A stretch of 64,000 nucleotides of DNA. It comes from an uncultured Paracoccaceae bacterium. Lineage in GTDB: Bacteria > Pseudomonadota > Alphaproteobacteria > Rhodobacterales > Rhodobacteraceae. Below are positions 1 to 6,926 of the stretch, in pieces. The DNA lies in the NCBI GenBank assembly GCA_947488605.1, contig CANKZJ010000001.1, positions 806,001 through 870,000 on the forward strand. The letters run 5' to 3'. The number at the start of each line of letters is the position of its first letter. The stretch's first letter is position 1. A program made the translations under genes and the position numbers. The notes beneath the pieces were generated by a model. It had not been told where the DNA came from and did no database searches. It saw only the letters and a list, made by a program, of their open reading frames with translations.

Positions 1-8
1 TCAACGCG

Positions 9-3000
9 ATGCAAGACTATCAGGCGATGCTTGATGCCACCCGTGACGGCATGATCAAGCGCGAGATGTCCGAGATCCCCGATGATCTGCGGGAACGATC
101 CAACCACCTCAAATCATTCGGTTATTATTGCGATGCCAGCATGGTTGGGGTCTGTGCCATTCCCGACGAGGCTTGGCTCACGACGCCACTTGCGAACCCC
201 GATGTTGATCGCTTGGCGGACAAACTCCGCACGATCCAGCCCAAGTCTCTGGCCGCGGGCATCGACGTGATCATGGCTGGCCTGCGCGACAGCATGGCGC
301 TGCCCCCTGTGGATTGTCGCCATCACACGCATGCTTTGGTGTTTCTCTACGATCATCCCCGTGCGCCCAAAACGTCCGAGAAAGGCACCACTTGGATCAA
401 AGACGCCCTGCCACAGCGCGCCTGTTTGCGCGGCATGGAGACGGCCGTCACGCTTGCCAGTTACATCCGCACGCTGGGGTATGATGCGCGCGCGCATTCG
501 ATGGCCGCATCGGACGTGCATTTGGGGGCCTTGGCCTGTCAGGCCGGATTGGTCGCCCTTGAAGACGGTGCATTGCTGAGCCCATTCACCAGGGACAGAT
601 ACGGGCTGGCAGCGATCACGACAACGCTTGCGATGGCACCTGACCAGCCACTTGTTGCGAAGCAAAAACCGCCTCTTGGGTATCAGACCGGATTAGGTGC
701 CCATGCAAAGTCGCAGCGCACCCGCGATCCTTTTGCCAAACGCGATTTCGCAGCAGGACCGCATCCGTTTGAAACGCTTAAACGCGTGGATCAGCCCACG
801 ACATATATTGACCGCCCCAATGTCGCGCGCGTGCCAAAGCGTGCCAACATGTTTGCCCGCGGTCTTTTTGGCGACATGGGCAAACACGTCCAAGAGGCCA
901 CAAAGAACGGCAACTATGTCCGCAAGTCTGCTGCTGCTTACGCATTTCGCCCCTCTTTGGGGGCGTTTGTGTTGCTGCAAGACGGGGAGGCCGCATCCGA
1001 TAAGGTCACGGGAAGCGCACAGGAAAACGCCGACAACATCAAGGCTGCACTTTACTTTCTGGGCGTTGACGCTGTTGGTCTGTCGGCCTGCCCGGACTGG
1101 GTATACTATAGCCACGATGCAAGCGGCGCGCCGATTACGCCTTACCATGATAACGCCATTTCGATGATCATCGACCAAGGCCATGAGACGATGGAAGGCG
1201 CATCTGGCGATGACTGGATCGCCTGCGCACAATCCATGCGGGCCTACTTGCGGTTTTCGCTGTTAGGTGGGGTATTGGCCCAGCATCTGCGCAATCTGGG
1301 ATACACTGCACGGGTGCATTCGGTCATGGACGACGAGGTGCTGCATCCGCCCCTGTTATTGCTATCAGGTCTGGGCGAGGTCAGTCGCATTGGCGAGGTG
1401 ATCTTGAACCCCTTCCTTGGGCCACGGCTTAAGTCCGGTGTCGTTACCACAAATATGCCAATGACCCACGACAAGCCGATTGATTTCGGCCTGCAAAAGT
1501 TCTGTGATGCTTGCAATAAATGCGCCCGCGAATGTCCATCCGGTGCGATCACCGCTGGACCGAAACTGATGTTCAACGGTTATGAAATCTGGAAATCAGA
1601 CAGCCAGAAATGCACAACCTACCGCGTCAGCCAAAAGAACGGCGCGATGTGTGGGCGCTGCATGAAGACCTGCCCATGGAACCTTGAAGGTTTGTTCGCA
1701 GAAGCACCATTTCGCAAGCTGGCGATGACAGTACCACAAGCGGCCAAATCGCTTGCCGCGCTCGACGATAAATTGGGTAAAGGCCGCATTAACCCCGTTA
1801 AGAAATGGTGGTGGGATCTTGAGATGGAAGATGACGGCGCCTACCGCCCCTCGCGTCATCCGGTCAACGCCCGCGATCTGCAAACCGACCTTAGTCTTAA
1901 GTTTGCTGATCAAACCTTGGCAGTCTACCCCGCCACGCTTGCACCACCGCCCTACCCTTGGCCCGCGCCAATGGACCGCGAAGCAGGCATTGCCGCCTAC
2001 GCCGCCATGATCCCAGCGGTCGAGCACCGCAAAAGGCGCGCGGCAGGCACCCCGCCAGAGCATGTCTACACGCCCTCAAAAGGTGATGCGCCAGTAATCC
2101 AAGTCGTGATCAGCAAGGCCGAAAAAATGACTGCTGCGGTCACCAAATACGAGTTTTCGCTGCCTGATGGCGGTAATTTGCCCCCAGTCACTGCGGGCGC
2201 GCATATTGATGTTGTCGTCGCACCAGAATTCTTCCGGCAGTACTCTCTGAGCGGGGATCCCGCGGACCGCGGCAAGTATCAAATCGCGGTTTTGCGCGAA
2301 GATACGGGGCGCGGCGGATCAAAGCTGATGCACCGGGTTTTTGAGGAAGGGCGGCGCGTGTTTATCTCGCGCCCGATCAATCATTTTCCATTGGTAGAAG
2401 ACGCGACCAAGACGTTTTTGATGGGCGGCGGCATCGGGATTACCCCAATGATTGCGATGGCCCATCGATTGCATGCGATTGGGGCTGATTTCGCCATGCA
2501 CTATAGTATGCGCAAGCGGCAGGATGCCGGCTTTTTGGACGATCTGGCAAAAGTCCCTTGGGCGAATAAAGTGCATTTGCATATCTCGGCGGAAGACACC
2601 CGCGCTGACCTTGCAAAGGTTCTGACCTATCAAGATGGCGCGCATGTCTATACCTGCGGACCCGATGCCTATATGACCGCTGTTATTGAAACAGCTACGA
2701 CAAACGGTTTTCCAGAAGCCGCGCGCCATTTGGAATATTTCGCGGTTCCTGAACAGCCAGACTATGAAAATCATCCCTTTACGCTTGTCCTGAATGATGG
2801 CCGCGAGGTTGCCGTTTCTACCGACGAGACAGCATCGGACGCGCTTCTTGCGGCGGGCGTTCATGTTGATGTCAAATGTGCCGATGGGCTTTGTGGTGTC
2901 TGCAAATGCGGGATTGTTGCGGGTGACATCGAACACCGAGATTTCGTGCTTTCAAAGGCGCAGCAAGACCGTCAAATCATCCTGTGCCAAAGCCGCGCAC

Positions 3001-3035
3001 GCGATGCAGGTGGCATCATCAGAATCGATCTCTAG
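9..3035 (+). CDS. rdhA: Self-sufficient reductive dehalogenase (RdhA-reductase fusion)
   Basis: Predicted cytoplasmic, respiration-independent reductive dehalogenase: a corrinoid and two Fe-S clusters would remove halogen from an organohalide with electrons from NAD(P)H. Residues 1 to about 490 resemble the NpRdhA/BhbA corrinoid domain. Ferredoxin cysteines follow at C499, C502, C505, C509 and C548, C551, C555. From about residue 690 there is a phthalate-dioxygenase-reductase-like module with flavin motif RQYSLSG (743-749), nucleotide motif GGGIGITP (806-813) and a plant-type 2Fe-2S site at C957, C962, C965 and C993. No Tat signal, membrane segment or RdhB anchor is present, unlike respiratory RdhA. 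The substrate is unknown; brominated aromatics are the BhbA precedent. The window starts 8 bases before the ATG, so an earlier start is possible. Its stop shares CTAG with the convergent neighbour. Confidence 0.85.
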   Translation: MQDYQAMLDATRDGMIKREMSEIPDDLRERSNHLKSFGYYCDASMVGVCAIPDEAWLTTPLANPDVDRLADKLRTIQPKSLAAGIDVIMAGLRDSMALPPVDCRHHTHALVFLYDHPRAPKTSEKGTTWIKDALPQRACLRGMETAVTLASYIRTLGYDARAHSMAASDVHLGALACQAGLVALEDGALLSPFTRDRYGLAAITTTLAMAPDQPLVAKQKPPLGYQTGLGAHAKSQRTRDPFAKRDFAAGPHPFETLKRVDQPTTYIDRPNVARVPKRANMFARGLFGDMGKHVQEATKNGNYVRKSAAAYAFRPSLGAFVLLQDGEAASDKVTGSAQENADNIKAALYFLGVDAVGLSACPDWVYYSHDASGAPITPYHDNAISMIIDQGHETMEGASGDDWIACAQSMRAYLRFSLLGGVLAQHLRNLGYTARVHSVMDDEVLHPPLLLLSGLGEVSRIGEVILNPFLGPRLKSGVVTTNMPMTHDKPIDFGLQKFCDACNKCARECPSGAITAGPKLMFNGYEIWKSDSQKCTTYRVSQKNGAMCGRCMKTCPWNLEGLFAEAPFRKLAMTVPQAAKSLAALDDKLGKGRINPVKKWWWDLEMEDDGAYRPSRHPVNARDLQTDLSLKFADQTLAVYPATLAPPPYPWPAPMDREAGIAAYAAMIPAVEHRKRRAAGTPPEHVYTPSKGDAPVIQVVISKAEKMTAAVTKYEFSLPDGGNLPPVTAGAHIDVVVAPEFFRQYSLSGDPADRGKYQIAVLREDTGRGGSKLMHRVFEEGRRVFISRPINHFPLVEDATKTFLMGGGIGITPMIAMAHRLHAIGADFAMHYSMRKRQDAGFLDDLAKVPWANKVHLHISAEDTRADLAKVLTYQDGAHVYTCGPDAYMTAVIETATTNGFPEAARHLEYFAVPEQPDYENHPFTLVLNDGREVAVSTDETASDALLAAGVHVDVKCADGLCGVCKCGIVAGDIEHRDFVLSKAQQDRQIILCQSRARDAGGIIRIDL

Positions 3036-3310
3036 GTCCAATGGACGCTTTCTGCACCGGGTAAGGCGTAGCGCGCGCGCAGGGGCTGATCATAGCCGAT
3101 TTCGGTGCTATCGCAAAATGCGATGACCCAATCATCGTCCATCGTGATAAATTCAAGCACCGCTGCCAGAAAAGCAGGATCAGACGCCCGGTTGCGTAGG
3201 TCCTCAACTGAACCACCTGATGCCCCAAGAAACATTGGGCAAAGCTCGTCATTGCCAGCCAACCAAGCTAGCCCTTGCAAGGCAATCACCTCTGCCTGTT
3301 CAGCCTGCAT
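3032..3310 (-). CDS. DUF3572 family protein
   Basis: Small 92-residue protein of the alphaproteobacterial DUF3572 family; function unknown. It is acidic and predicted soluble, with no signal peptide or membrane segment. The N-terminal helix (EQAEVIALQGLAWLAG) and the central FLGASGG element are what I recognise of the family. The start is supported by an AAGGAT ribosome site just upstream. It is convergent with the dehalogenase and shares a 4-base CTAG stop with it. It is divergent from pleD, an arrangement I recall as common in Rhodobacterales. Confidence 0.75.
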   Translation of the reverse strand: MQAEQAEVIALQGLAWLAGNDELCPMFLGASGGSVEDLRNRASDPAFLAAVLEFITMDDDWVIAFCDSTEIGYDQPLRARYALPGAESVHWT

Positions 3311-3404: not shown

Positions 3405-4793
3405 ATGACTGCGCGAATTCTGATTGTCGATAGCATCGCAACTAATCGGATTGTTTTGAAGGTTAAAATGATCGCCGCCCAATTTGTCGTCGACGCCTGT
3501 GCGACCCGCGCAGAGGCGGAAGACGCCATTGCCCAACATCATCCCGATCTTGTCTTACTTAACCTCTCTGATCAGGACGGCGACCGACACGGGTTCTGCA
3601 AAATGCTGCGCAACCTGCCTGCATCCGCCTCAATTGCAATTATTGCAGTCGGGGTAGCCGATACTGCGCAGGCACGCTTTGCAGCACTTGATGCAGGTGC
3701 CGATGATGTCTTGTCTCATCCGATCAACGACACTCTTATGATGGCACGTATCCGTAGCCTTTTGCGGGTGCGCAGCGTTGGTCAAGAACTCGTCTTGCGC
3801 GATAGCACCAGCAAGGCCTTGGGGTTCGAGGAAGCCACAGCGCGTTTTCAGGCTGCTGCGAATGTGGCGTTCGTCTCATCTCAAATTGGCGAACCGACGC
3901 AATGGCTTAGCGCGTTCCGCAAGGTAACATCGCATAAAACACGGCTACTGGACCCAGATGGGGTCTTGGGTGCTACCGATCTGAGGCCGGTGCCTGATCT
4001 GTTTATTCTTGATGCGACCAAAGGTGATTTGCAGCAAAACAGCTTCTTGAATTTGATCTCTGATCTGCGGTCACGCTCTGAAACACGGCTGGCGGCACAG
4101 CTGATCGTTCTTGGGCCAGATCAAGCCGAACTTGCCGCGATGTGCCTTGATCTAGGTGCAGACGACGTGGTCAGTGCGACAGCGGACCCCAAAGAGATGA
4201 AACACCGGGCCAATGTGCTGATCGGACGCAAACAGCAACATGATCGGCTCCGCGATACTGTGCGGTCAGGACTGCATGCCGCGATCACTGACCCGCTTAC
4301 CGGGCTTTATAACAGGCGCTACGCGGTTCCGCATCTGAACCGAATGGCCGCGGAATCTACAAAACTGGAAAGACCATTTGCGATCATGATGATCGATATC
4401 GATCATTTCAAGGCCGTGAATGATACTTACGGCCATGCCGCCGGTGACGCGGTGTTGGTGCAGCTGTCGGATCGGCTCCGCGAGAACTTGCGCGCGATTG
4501 ATTTCGTCGCACGCATGGGCGGTGAGGAATTCTTGATCGCAATGCCCCGAACATCAGTGCGACGCGCCAAATTGGCCGCTGATCGTTTGCGCCGATTGGT
4601 CAATAAAGCACCGTTCAACTATGCAGAAGGGAAATCCGTGGATGTGACAGTTTCGGTCGGTGTCGCTGTCAGCGGCATTCCCGGCGAGGACATCTTGGGC
4701 CGTGAGGTCATGTGTGATCTCGCTGATCAAGCCCTCTATGAGGCGAAAGCAGCTGGCAGAAATCAAGTTGCAATGTGCGCTTCAGCCGCCTGA
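3405..4793 (+). CDS. pleD: PleD-like diguanylate cyclase (REC-REC-GGDEF)
   Basis: Makes cyclic di-GMP from two GTP. The 462 residues fit the PleD layout: two receiver-like domains (about 1-120 and 150-280) and a GGDEF domain (about 290-458). The cyclase signature is intact (GGEEF at 372-376) with the inhibitory I-site R363-x-x-D366 five residues before it. The first receiver is degenerate: by alignment to PleD, D9 is kept but D10 is Ser, phosphoacceptor D53 is Asn, T83 is Gly and K105 is His, so phosphoryl control is unlikely. The second receiver is an adaptor even in classical PleD. A GAGAGG site precedes the ATG. The 3' end overlaps the convergent Spy-like gene by 12 bases. Confidence 0.88.
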   Translation: MTARILIVDSIATNRIVLKVKMIAAQFVVDACATRAEAEDAIAQHHPDLVLLNLSDQDGDRHGFCKMLRNLPASASIAIIAVGVADTAQARFAALDAGADDVLSHPINDTLMMARIRSLLRVRSVGQELVLRDSTSKALGFEEATARFQAAANVAFVSSQIGEPTQWLSAFRKVTSHKTRLLDPDGVLGATDLRPVPDLFILDATKGDLQQNSFLNLISDLRSRSETRLAAQLIVLGPDQAELAAMCLDLGADDVVSATADPKEMKHRANVLIGRKQQHDRLRDTVRSGLHAAITDPLTGLYNRRYAVPHLNRMAAESTKLERPFAIMMIDIDHFKAVNDTYGHAAGDAVLVQLSDRLRENLRAIDFVARMGGEEFLIAMPRTSVRRAKLAADRLRRLVNKAPFNYAEGKSVDVTVSVGVAVSGIPGEDILGREVMCDLADQALYEAKAAGRNQVAMCASAA

Positions 4794-5276
4794 CGGCGCA
4801 CGCTGGCGGTTGGGTCTATCTTTGGCCAGTTCTTCACGCAATTGATCCGCAAAAATGGCACGGCGTTCCGGGGTCATCTCTGACAAAACCGTAACAAATG
4901 CATCTTGCGCTTTGCCTTGCACCTCCGATAATCGTGCCGCATGTTCATCAAGAAGCATCCGCAATGCCGCCTCGTCAAAGGGATCTTGTTTAAGAGTGGC
5001 GACAATCCTATCAACGCGCCCACGCAGATCAACGTTCCGCAAGACGCGGTCTTGTCGCAAACTCCGGCCAATATCGCGCCGCTCTTCAGGAGCGAGTGCG
5101 CGAGACATCGGACCAAGCCCGAGATCAAAACTGCGCGGTGGGCCGTCACCCAACCGCCCCGAAACTAACGCGCCGCCAATAAGCCCAACAACGCAAAGGT
5201 TAAGCGCCAGCGAGATCACAAGCACAATCCGCCAAAGCTTCTTAGGCTTTGCGGGGGTATTGTCCTGTTCAACCAT
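4782..5276 (-). CDS. Periplasmic Spy/CpxP-like heavy-metal sensor protein
   Basis: 164 residues. A single N-terminal membrane anchor (about 14-38) is followed by a helical periplasmic domain with paired LTxEQ-like segments (ALAPEERRDI and EMTPERRAIF), typical of the Spy/CpxP/CnrX 'periplasmic heavy-metal sensor' group. Such proteins bind metals or unfolded proteins and feed an envelope-stress regulator. It is last in an operon with an ECF sigma factor and a one-TM protein, overlapping the latter by 8 bases, so it probably senses the signal that releases the sigma factor. The inducing signal cannot be read from the sequence. Confidence 0.7.
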   Translation of the reverse strand: MVEQDNTPAKPKKLWRIVLVISLALNLCVVGLIGGALVSGRLGDGPPRSFDLGLGPMSRALAPEERRDIGRSLRQDRVLRNVDLRGRVDRIVATLKQDPFDEAALRMLLDEHAARLSEVQGKAQDAFVTVLSEMTPERRAIFADQLREELAKDRPNRQRAPSGG

Positions 5277-5631
5277 CTACAAAATCTCCTGCGGCAAATC
5301 CAAAATCAGACGAGAAAAGATCAACACTCACCTCATCCCCCATGAATGATGCCGTGATGTCTTCGACCGATGAGGGCGGTGCGACCCCGATCCAGATACC
5401 CGCGACGGTCGCGGCAGCCAGTCCGCTCACTGCAGGCCAGCCCCCGATGACATCCATGAATTGCGCCCACATGCCAAGGCGAGCCTTTTGGACGGATTGC
5501 GACTTGGGCTGCGCAGCTTCCGCATCTGCCAGAACACGCGCCATCAAGGCATCGCTGGGTGCCACCTTGAACGCGCGCGCATCCGCAAACAGATCATCGA
5601 GCATTTTGTCGTTTGGGTCAGTCATCATCAT
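5269..5631 (-). CDS. Small membrane protein, probable anti-sigma factor
   Basis: 120 residues: a soluble N-terminal part of about 60 residues beginning MMMTDPNDKMLDDLF, one hydrophobic segment (about 63-85) and an acidic C-terminal tail. It is not a recognisable ZAS anti-sigma domain. Its place between an ECF sigma gene (overlap 14 bases) and a Spy-like sensor (overlap 8 bases), together with a cytoplasmic-TM-periplasmic layout, makes an anti-sigma or accessory role likely; that is inference from context. The first three codons are all ATG, so the exact start is uncertain. Confidence 0.5.
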   Translation of the reverse strand: MMMTDPNDKMLDDLFADARAFKVAPSDALMARVLADAEAAQPKSQSVQKARLGMWAQFMDVIGGWPAVSGLAAATVAGIWIGVAPPSSVEDITASFMGDEVSVDLFSSDFGFAAGDFVDG

Positions 5632-6205
5632 ACCCCAGTTCTGCCTTTCGCCCCGCCATGATGTCTGCCAAGGCGCGTTTCCCGCGTGCTGTGAGACTCT
5701 CTACGGACCGCACGCTGATGTCCATAATTTGCGCAATCTCGGGATTAGGTAACCCCTCGAGGTGGCGCAACGCTACCGCTTGTGCTTGCCTGTCAGGCAA
5801 TTGTGCCAGCGCATCTGAAAGTGCGGCCATGCGTGCATTCGTCTGCATCTGCGCCGCCACGCTAGGTGTGCCGTCCAAAGGTTCTGCCACCTGATCCAAG
5901 GACACCGCACCGCGCCTTTTGCGCAATCGGTCGGTGCATAGATTGGCAACAACGCGGTAGAGCCATGTGCTGATCTGTGCTTCGCCTTGGCGCCACTCCG
6001 GCGCAATCTTCCAAAGACGCATCATCGCATCTTGCGCCACATCCTCGGCCTCGCTTGGGTTGCCCAACATCCGGGTCGCCTGCGCCAAGACCCGAGGCAA
6101 GAGCCGCGTTGTCAAAAAACGCGCAGCTTGGCCGTCGCCATTGGCGAAGGCCACCAAAAGCGCCTCGTCTGGAGCGCCCGCAAAAGGGTCTGGCTGTGCG
6201 TTCAT
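5618..6205 (-). CDS. ECF-type RNA polymerase sigma factor
   Basis: 195-residue sigma-70 family protein with region 2 (DVAQDAMMRLWK, about 56-67) and region 4 (LPDRQAQAVALRH, followed by a helix-turn-helix around PEIAQIMDIS). It lacks regions 1 and 3, as expected of an extracytoplasmic-function sigma factor. It heads an operon of sigma, one-TM protein and Spy-like sensor. This three-gene arrangement recurs in Rhodobacterales, often near EF-hand genes such as the one immediately upstream. The regulon probably includes its own operon, but I could not identify a cognate promoter. Confidence 0.85.
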   Translation of the reverse strand: MNAQPDPFAGAPDEALLVAFANGDGQAARFLTTRLLPRVLAQATRMLGNPSEAEDVAQDAMMRLWKIAPEWRQGEAQISTWLYRVVANLCTDRLRKRRGAVSLDQVAEPLDGTPSVAAQMQTNARMAALSDALAQLPDRQAQAVALRHLEGLPNPEIAQIMDISVRSVESLTARGKRALADIMAGRKAELGYDDD

Positions 6206-6280
6206 CTGTCAAAGAGCTAGCGAGAATACCATTCAGAGGCAATCGGCAGGAGAACGAGACGCCCCCTGCCAAATCGCGGT

Positions 6281-6739
6281 TTAGCCACGATCACGCTTGC
6301 CATGATCACGGCGTCCGCCGTGGCGTTCTTTGGCGGCCTCGAATTCTTCTTGCGAGATCACACCGTCTTCGTCTGCGTCAACACGCTCGAACATCCGCGC
6401 GGCGCGGTCTTGGCCGCGGGTTGGCATTTCGTCTTGTTGCAAAACACCGTCGCCGTTTTCGTCCAAGCGTTCGATCATGCGTGCAGCACGATCTTCTGCG
6501 CGACCCTCGGCAGCAGCGATCAGTTCTTCGGCAGAGATTGCGCCATCGCCGTTTGCGTCAATATTGGCGAAACGCGCCGCGCGCTGTGCCTGCAACTCTT
6601 CCAAGCTTAGGCCGCCGTCACCGTTCAAATCAAGCGTCGCAAAATCGGGGCGCTCGCGTGGTTCGTCTTGTGCCTGTGCCGCACCTGCGGTTGCTACAAG
6701 ACTTGCAAGAACCGCTGCCATCAAAATCTTCGTCTTCAT
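6281..6739 (-). CDS. Secreted protein with four EF-hands (calcium binding)
   Basis: 152 residues with a Sec signal peptide (MKTKILMAAVLASLVATAGAA) and a mature protein that is almost entirely four canonical EF-hand loops at 37-48, 61-72, 93-104 and 121-132. Each loop has Asp at position 1 and Glu at position 12, so all four should bind Ca2+. The C-terminus is basic and His/Gly-rich (KERHGGRRDHGKRDRG). The start is set by the signal peptide; a longer frame reaching 6889 would bury it. It lies 75 bases upstream of the sigma gene on the same strand. Periplasmic calcium buffering or sensing is an inference. Confidence 0.8.
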   Translation of the reverse strand: MKTKILMAAVLASLVATAGAAQAQDEPRERPDFATLDLNGDGGLSLEELQAQRAARFANIDANGDGAISAEELIAAAEGRAEDRAARMIERLDENGDGVLQQDEMPTRGQDRAARMFERVDADEDGVISQEEFEAAKERHGGRRDHGKRDRG

Positions 6740-6926
6740 TGTTCTTTCCTTTTCTTTGGGTGTTGCAGCTGTTTTGCGCTGCTGACCCTCCTTCAACGCA
6801 CCGCCCTCAGGCTTCCGTCGGCATTTTTTGATGTTTTTTTGCGGGGCGCCAAAAAACGTAGGCAAACACCCCCTTTTCAAGCCAGCCATGATCCGTCATG
6901 TGATAATGAGACGCCGGAGACGCCTG

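Follow-up and report, generated by a model that had tools for sequence, protein, structure and literature searches.

A predicted self-sufficient catabolic reductive dehalogenase, and its putative regulation, in the chromosomal backbone of a Rhodobacterales bacterium

Closest described enzymes and the locus under study

Catabolic reductive dehalogenases that carry their own reductase module within a single polypeptide are represented by BhbA of Comamonas sp. 7D-2 and JtRdhA (WP_104007082) of the marine bacterium Jhaorihella thermophila. Here we describe a gene predicted to encode an enzyme of this type, located on the plus strand at the left edge of a 64,000-nucleotide stretch of DNA (hereafter the window) of an uncultured Paracoccaceae bacterium of the order Rhodobacterales. 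The window corresponds to C1:806001-870000 of its own genome (contig CANKZJ010000001.1 of assembly GCA_947488605.1). The encoded protein, P0001, is a further member of an already described enzyme class; what is added is the start of the gene, the occurrence counts, evidence against a link with its neighbours, and a candidate regulator and operator that are present in relatives and apparently lost or rearranged at this locus.

According to the 2023 report, purified JtRdhA is NADPH-driven and active in air, shows an NADPH to product ratio of 1:1, and converts bromo- and iodophenols, whereas no chloro- or fluoro-compound tested was a substrate (PMC10463259). The same source describes it, likewise, as an RdhA fused to a phthalate dioxygenase reductase, with a duplicated cobalamin-binding domain, no twin-arginine translocation (Tat) signal, and the same six key pocket residues as those of P0001. 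JtRdhA is a different protein, and it is compared with P0001 by this published description, not by sequence. The original prediction took BhbA for the main precedent, a view that has to be revised, as JtRdhA too has been purified and characterised as an NADPH-dependent enzyme.

BhbA, which is 48.6% identical to P0001, shares its full-length architecture and catalytic residues. Its gene lies on the conjugative plasmid pBHB next to genes for protocatechuate 4,5-dioxygenase and transport proteins, unlike the gene studied here. NpRdhA of Nitratireductor pacificus (PDB 4ras, 6zxu, 6zy0, 6zy1) has in common with P0001 the RdhA part, the vestigial domain and residues Y426/K488/R552; it is described as having no fused reductase module (PMC10463259). 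P0001 is 46.4% identical to NpRdhA over 575 aligned residues, as compared with about 39% stated for JtRdhA (PMC10463259), a value possibly measured in a different way. Another reductive dehalogenase of the Roseobacter group, Ros_A3X954 of Roseobacter sp. MED193, also has no Tat signal and debrominates 2,6-dibromophenol. Its 4Fe-4S motifs at residues 283-345 imply a shorter RdhA, it is reported to be oxygen-sensitive, and the accessible part of the report does not mention a reductase module (PMC13101508).

Gene extent, domain composition and fold

Within the window, the open reading frame list gives 1,008 codons, from the ATG at position 9 to the stop codon at 3035, and this frame was originally taken for the whole gene. 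The open frame is real, but it is only a part of the gene (window positions 1-3035), as it is still open at the left window edge. In the bacterium's own genome it extends to an ATG at C1:805850, i.e. 150 bases 5' of the first base of the window, so that the complete protein (C1:805850-809035) has 1,061 rather than 1,008 amino acids. The 53 additional N-terminal residues align with homologues, and in five related loci (L009-L012 and L014) the earliest start codon of the open frame coincides with residue 1 of P0001. An alternative in-frame TTG, 13 codons further upstream, is a less likely start.

The reductive dehalogenase model TIGR02486 matched P0001 with 196.5 bits against a cut-off of 160.35, and the Fer4_7, Fer4_16 and Fer2 models also exceeded their cut-offs. 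TIGR02486 was used in place of the Pfam Dehalogenase model PF13486, which gave no match in this genome and likewise none in the control genomes and was thus uninformative; TIGR02486 itself matched 11 of 14 control genomes weakly and none of them over the cut-off. Among PDB sequences, P0001 matched NpRdhA (E 2.4e-160) and phthalate dioxygenase reductase (1e-51), and its predicted fold, with a mean predicted local distance difference test score (pLDDT) of 73.3, resembles the former over residues 10-734 as well as the latter.

The catalytic corrinoid domain with the 4Fe-4S region, delimited by the TIGR02486 match, occupies window positions 1146-1685 (plus strand, as all parts of the gene). Two 4Fe-4S clusters are represented at 1503-1673 by eight cysteines (C552, C555, C558, C562, C588, C601, C604 and C608) that are present in all 84 rows of the alignment. 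The phthalate dioxygenase reductase module, recognised by PDB sequence match, alignment and fold search, spans positions 2085-3032; the Pfam FAD- and NAD-binding models score only below cut-off. Its residues for binding of flavin (R796, Y798, S799), NAD(P)H (G860-T865) and the 2Fe-2S cluster (C1010, C1015, C1018, C1046) are kept in 84/84 rows, with the exception of Y798 (79/84). A second, N-terminal TIGR02486 match, weak and below cut-off (29.6 bits), marks a putative vestigial copy of the cobalamin-binding domain (90-653), and such a duplicate is expected in catabolic RdhAs (PMC10463259). The proposed fusion of RdhA with a flavin/NAD/2Fe-2S reductase is thus borne out by the domain models, the PDB matches and the cofactor ligands.

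The full N-terminus of P0001 holds no twin-arginine leader, a lone RR at residue 42 having no hydrophobic stretch nearby. A Kyte-Doolittle scan revealed no transmembrane-like segment (top 19-residue mean 1.41 overall and 0.33 near the N-terminus), in keeping with the earlier statement that both Tat signal and membrane anchor are absent. There is also no adjacent gene for an RdhB anchor: a divergent HAD hydrolase gene begins 61 bases away and a DUF3572 gene overlaps the stop codon (rdhB elsewhere in the genome was not searched for). The locus therefore lacks what defines respiratory RdhAs, i.e. a Tat signal and a neighbouring RdhB gene, and shows the sequence features of the self-sufficient catabolic ones, i.e. 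the dehalogenase domain with two 4Fe-4S motifs, a fused reductase, no Tat signal or anchor, and the six pocket residues. Based on these observations, we suggest, with a probability of about 0.88, that P0001 belongs with BhbA and JtRdhA among the self-sufficient reductive dehalogenases of catabolic type and is located in the cytosol, where it is predicted to debrominate or deiodinate ortho-halogenated phenols.

RdhA has a relative among cobalamin enzymes in QueG (PMC10463259), and the QueG model TIGR00276 does match P0001 weakly, which could indicate an epoxyqueuosine reductase-like or another corrinoid reductase instead of a dehalogenase. However, this match scores 23 bits where the cut-off is 200, whereas the cut-off of TIGR02486 is exceeded (see above), and the serine/lysine/arginine trio that binds the phenol hydroxyl is conserved in 84/84 rows. 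Moreover, the other weak reductive dehalogenase match in the genome (C3:150152, 29.3 bits) is, as we infer, probably the actual QueG. No QueG chains occurred among the 50 matches listed in either fold search, which carries no evidential weight. A QueG-like identity is thus hardly credible, and the original assignment to RdhA stands, also in view of the sequence and fold match to NpRdhA.

Active site, substrate and physiological role

In NpRdhA complexes, K488, R552 and S422 contact the substrate hydroxyl and Y426 is the proton donor (PMC7565698). NpRdhA residues F291, S422, M423, Y426, K488 and R552 are conserved in all 84 aligned members. The alignment with NpRdhA places Tyr466 (Y426 of NpRdhA) at window positions 1245-1247, Lys528 (K488) at 1431-1433 and Arg592 (R552) at 1623-1625, so that the Tyr/Lys catalytic pair, whose presence was to be checked, has been found in P0001 and in every other row.

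By analogy with the characterised relatives, NADPH (or NADH) would reduce the flavin of the C-terminal module, and electrons would travel onward by way of the 2Fe-2S cluster of that module and then the two 4Fe-4S clusters until they reach the corrinoid. The substrate, an ortho-halogenated phenol, would sit above the cobalt, with S462, K528 and R592 binding its hydroxyl. Cleavage of the carbon-halogen bond, with Tyr466 giving the proton, would then release bromide or iodide. Oxygen tolerance and a preference for bromo- and iodophenols may be expected on the same grounds. The genome encodes CobN and can therefore probably make the corrinoid cofactor.

Several observations weigh against this interpretation. 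The pLDDT falls below 50 in active-site and cluster stretches (residues 343-359, 449-453, 558-578 and 583-614), and hence the model is evidence for the fold but not for the geometry of catalysis. The pocket wall is changed with respect to NpRdhA (F290M, F310Y, P311V, A419C, N452V and, uncertain as it adjoins a small alignment gap, K307T), which means that the substrate may differ. The gene is under purifying selection, with a ratio of nonsynonymous to synonymous substitution rates (dN/dS) of 0.05-0.09 across the whole gene and 0.016-0.051 in the core (eight comparisons), but these values are rough because dS (1.7-3.5) is near saturation. Finally, the genome contains no match to homogentisate dioxygenase (the control matched in Caulobacter) and no above-cut-off match to 4-hydroxybenzoate hydroxylase. 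Feeding of the product into homogentisate or protocatechuate is therefore unsupported by the genome searches, other aromatic routes not having been searched, and the enzyme is no less likely to serve detoxification or halogen removal than to support growth on halophenols. Its likely role would be to dehalogenate bromo- or iodophenols that occur naturally in the sea.

At five pocket-wall positions BhbA has F/S/V/S/A and P0001 has M/Y/V/C/V. This hydrophobic wall, unlike that of NpRdhA or BhbA, is yet well conserved among the 84 members (Y356 78/84, V357 76/84, C459 71/84, V492 81/84), and the locus has no halophenol-catabolic neighbours, whereas the plasmid of BhbA has them. It might be argued that the RdhA fold now serves another natural substrate, either a halogenated non-phenolic or a non-halogenated metabolite. 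We consider this unlikely, as there is no variation in the residues binding the phenol hydroxyl or in the proton donor, and JtRdhA, reported with identical key residues, accepts bromo- and iodophenols (PMC10463259). For a halophenol dehalogenase, a pocket wall that differs from NpRdhA and BhbA but is conserved in the clade suggests one common natural substrate, perhaps other than that of these two enzymes.

Distribution and genomic context

A scan of genome contigs yielded 305 relatives, and the 80 best were retained; the nearest named ones among these, by protein, are from Yoonia sp. F2084L (85%) and Roseobacter sp. CCS2 (84%). When the order was sampled evenly, a dehalogenase match (E <= 1e-80) was present in 186/390 genomes and 59/139 genera. 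According to PMC13101508, which cites Chen et al., homologues of bhbA occur widely across the Roseobacter clade; the wide distribution has thus already been stated, and only the counts are new. A literature search by title found no paper that surveys such genes in seawater or across Rhodobacterales. The Roseobacter group can account for as much as 25% of the microbial community in the sea (PMC13101508), and since nearly half of the sampled genomes carry the gene, bromophenol removal in seawater may be routine and not a specialist trait.

Within the genus, presumably Yoonia, the dehalogenase is found in 27 of the 35 other genomes; seven give no match, and in G016 the match is confined to the reductase part. 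Two dehalogenase types occur, 78-88% and 60-66% identical to ours. Members covering at least 80% of the query were found in 8 of 72,556 plasmid records, pBHB included. Some copies are broken: one (G017:C2:1477513-1480694) is apparently frameshifted, one of three copies in another genome (G033) has an in-frame stop, and a plasmid copy (L099) was recovered as two pieces only. Such broken and multiple copies suggest repeated loss and transfer of the dehalogenase. Together with the genus mates that lack it and the absence of its presumed regulator (see below), they might also be read as signs that our gene is a relic under relaxed constraint; this is very unlikely given its low dN/dS and intact catalytic and cluster residues. 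A 73% identical gene with the same MarR, HAD and DUF3572 genes was seen on a contig filed under Pimelobacter (Actinomycetota); this dehalogenase clusters with Maritimibacter in the tree, and the contig is probably misbinned.

The dehalogenase is a presence/absence unit in a stable chromosomal backbone. Its convergent neighbour is the DUF3572 gene (window positions 3032-3310, minus strand), which overlaps the stop codon by four bases and shows no sign of a functional link; it is followed by a response regulator-GGDEF gene (3405-4793, plus strand), used for locating empty sites. Upstream, on the opposite strand, lie the divergent HAD gene and a gene of the MTTB family. HAD and DUF3572 genes stand on either side of the dehalogenase in 40 of the 76 loci for which the sequence extends far enough in both directions. 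They adjoin each other in 7/7 examined genus mates lacking the dehalogenase (G016 included, G020 left out) and in 3/3 examined carriers of the second type, their matches at empty sites being 12-94 bases apart. These neighbours are thus uninformative on the substrate. A link of either to dehalogenation was rejected, which agrees with what had been predicted for DUF3572. MTTB, which we take to be a corrinoid methyltransferase family, was also rejected as a partner, as it adjoins HAD in only two of seven empty-site stretches. The copy of Nitratireductor OM-1, like BhbA, sits with aromatic-ring-cleavage genes, and plasmid copies of Aminobacter, Jannaschia and Yoonia SS1-5 lie beside MarR and TRAP or ABC transport genes.

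Putative regulation

In Dehalococcoides, rdh genes are known to be under MarR-type control (Rdh2R). Of the 82 loci that have 2 kb or more of upstream sequence, 39 contain a MarR-family gene that lies on the same strand and ends at most 200 bases 5' of the dehalogenase frame (e.g. L021:2988-3458 and L096:7512-7967), the family assignment being based on Pfam analysis of one cluster representative and the plasmid genes. MarR homologues (E <= 1e-12) occur in 3 of the 72,556 plasmid records, all of them among the eight with a dehalogenase; the remaining five have none. Near the start of the MarR gene, a TTGACNNNGTCAA palindrome (at most one mismatch) was found in 29/41 loci, one of 42 having been dropped for too little upstream sequence, as against 0.2 expected from dinucleotide shuffles, and in 15/25 loci of a set non-redundant at 70% identity, against 0.125. 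The pattern was picked after viewing the same promoters, and the shuffle expectations do not allow for that. Inside the MarR gene it was absent (0/26). It is likely that TTGACNNNGTCAA is the autoregulatory operator of MarR, and this MarR, which precedes the dehalogenase in about half of the related loci, probably represses it. The MarR gene and its operator-like site offer a handle on the substrate of the enzyme, as the inducer is expected to be either the natural substrate itself or a precursor of it.

A FastTree phylogeny of 84 rows, in which some inner branches are weak (support below 80 in 21 of 81), requires at least seven changes of MarR presence, which was scored in 81 rows (present in 40, absent from 41). 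By simple parsimony, MarR belongs in the ancestor of a 74-row clade containing our gene, and none of the 20 scored rows of our own 22-row clade has it; most likely, MarR was lost here and in other branches too. The best match elsewhere in the genome (33% over 95 residues, 33 bits) was judged a paralogue, not an orthologue. A MarR profile search (E <= 1e-20) found nothing in 23 genus genomes, our own included. Its sole match in the full set of 37 genomes, which contained no known true positive, comes from G049 (4.1e-21), a genome without a dehalogenase match, and the MarR family is therefore not strictly tied to dehalogenases.

The upstream region, where a regulator was to be looked for, lacks a MarR gene but contains a conserved element. 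Just before the window, four bases 5' of the start codon, lies a perfect 10+10 inverted repeat, ATTGACACCG-N16-CGGTGTCAAT (L001:15810-15845, i.e. C1:805810-805845). Its 10-base-arm form arose in 0/200 shuffles of a 20-kb stretch. With up to two mismatches allowed, the genome has a single site for the 9-base-arm form; six other sites all have three mismatches. Of the 21 clade loci examined (L088 left out), 16 have a looser TTGACA-N22-TGTCAA. In six of the 16 the spacer and inner left-arm bases vary and ACGGTGTCAA is retained, and the five members without the right arm retain TTGACA alone. The half-sites of the repeat are those of the MarR operator, placed 21 bp further apart. Half of this resemblance may be coincidental, since TTGACA is the consensus -35 box. 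Either another regulator would act on the repeat in our clade, or the gene would not be controlled. Putting these elements together, a tentative and rather doubtful picture is that of a widespread chromosomal function of Rhodobacterales, detoxifying or recycling marine bromo- and iodophenols and not serving growth, the control of which was rewired here: the MarR repressor would have been lost, and half-sites TTGACA/TGTCAA kept 21 bp further apart (about two helical turns), overlapping the promoter and readable by another protein.

Other observations

Genes for a haem-NO-binding (HNOB) protein and a GGDEF/HNOBA protein adjoin each other at L022:7279-9002 and similar loci, and may form a nitric-oxide-sensing pair; near the dehalogenase, HNOB was seen in 26/87 loci and GGDEF/HNOBA in 28/87. 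On the minus strand of the window, positions 4782-6889 hold a possible extracytoplasmic function sigma/anti-sigma metal-stress unit. It comprises a Metal_resist protein (4782-5276, domain model tested) and, by reading of the translations, a short frame (5269-5631) overlapping a sigma factor-like one (5618-6205), and an EF-hand protein (6281-6889).
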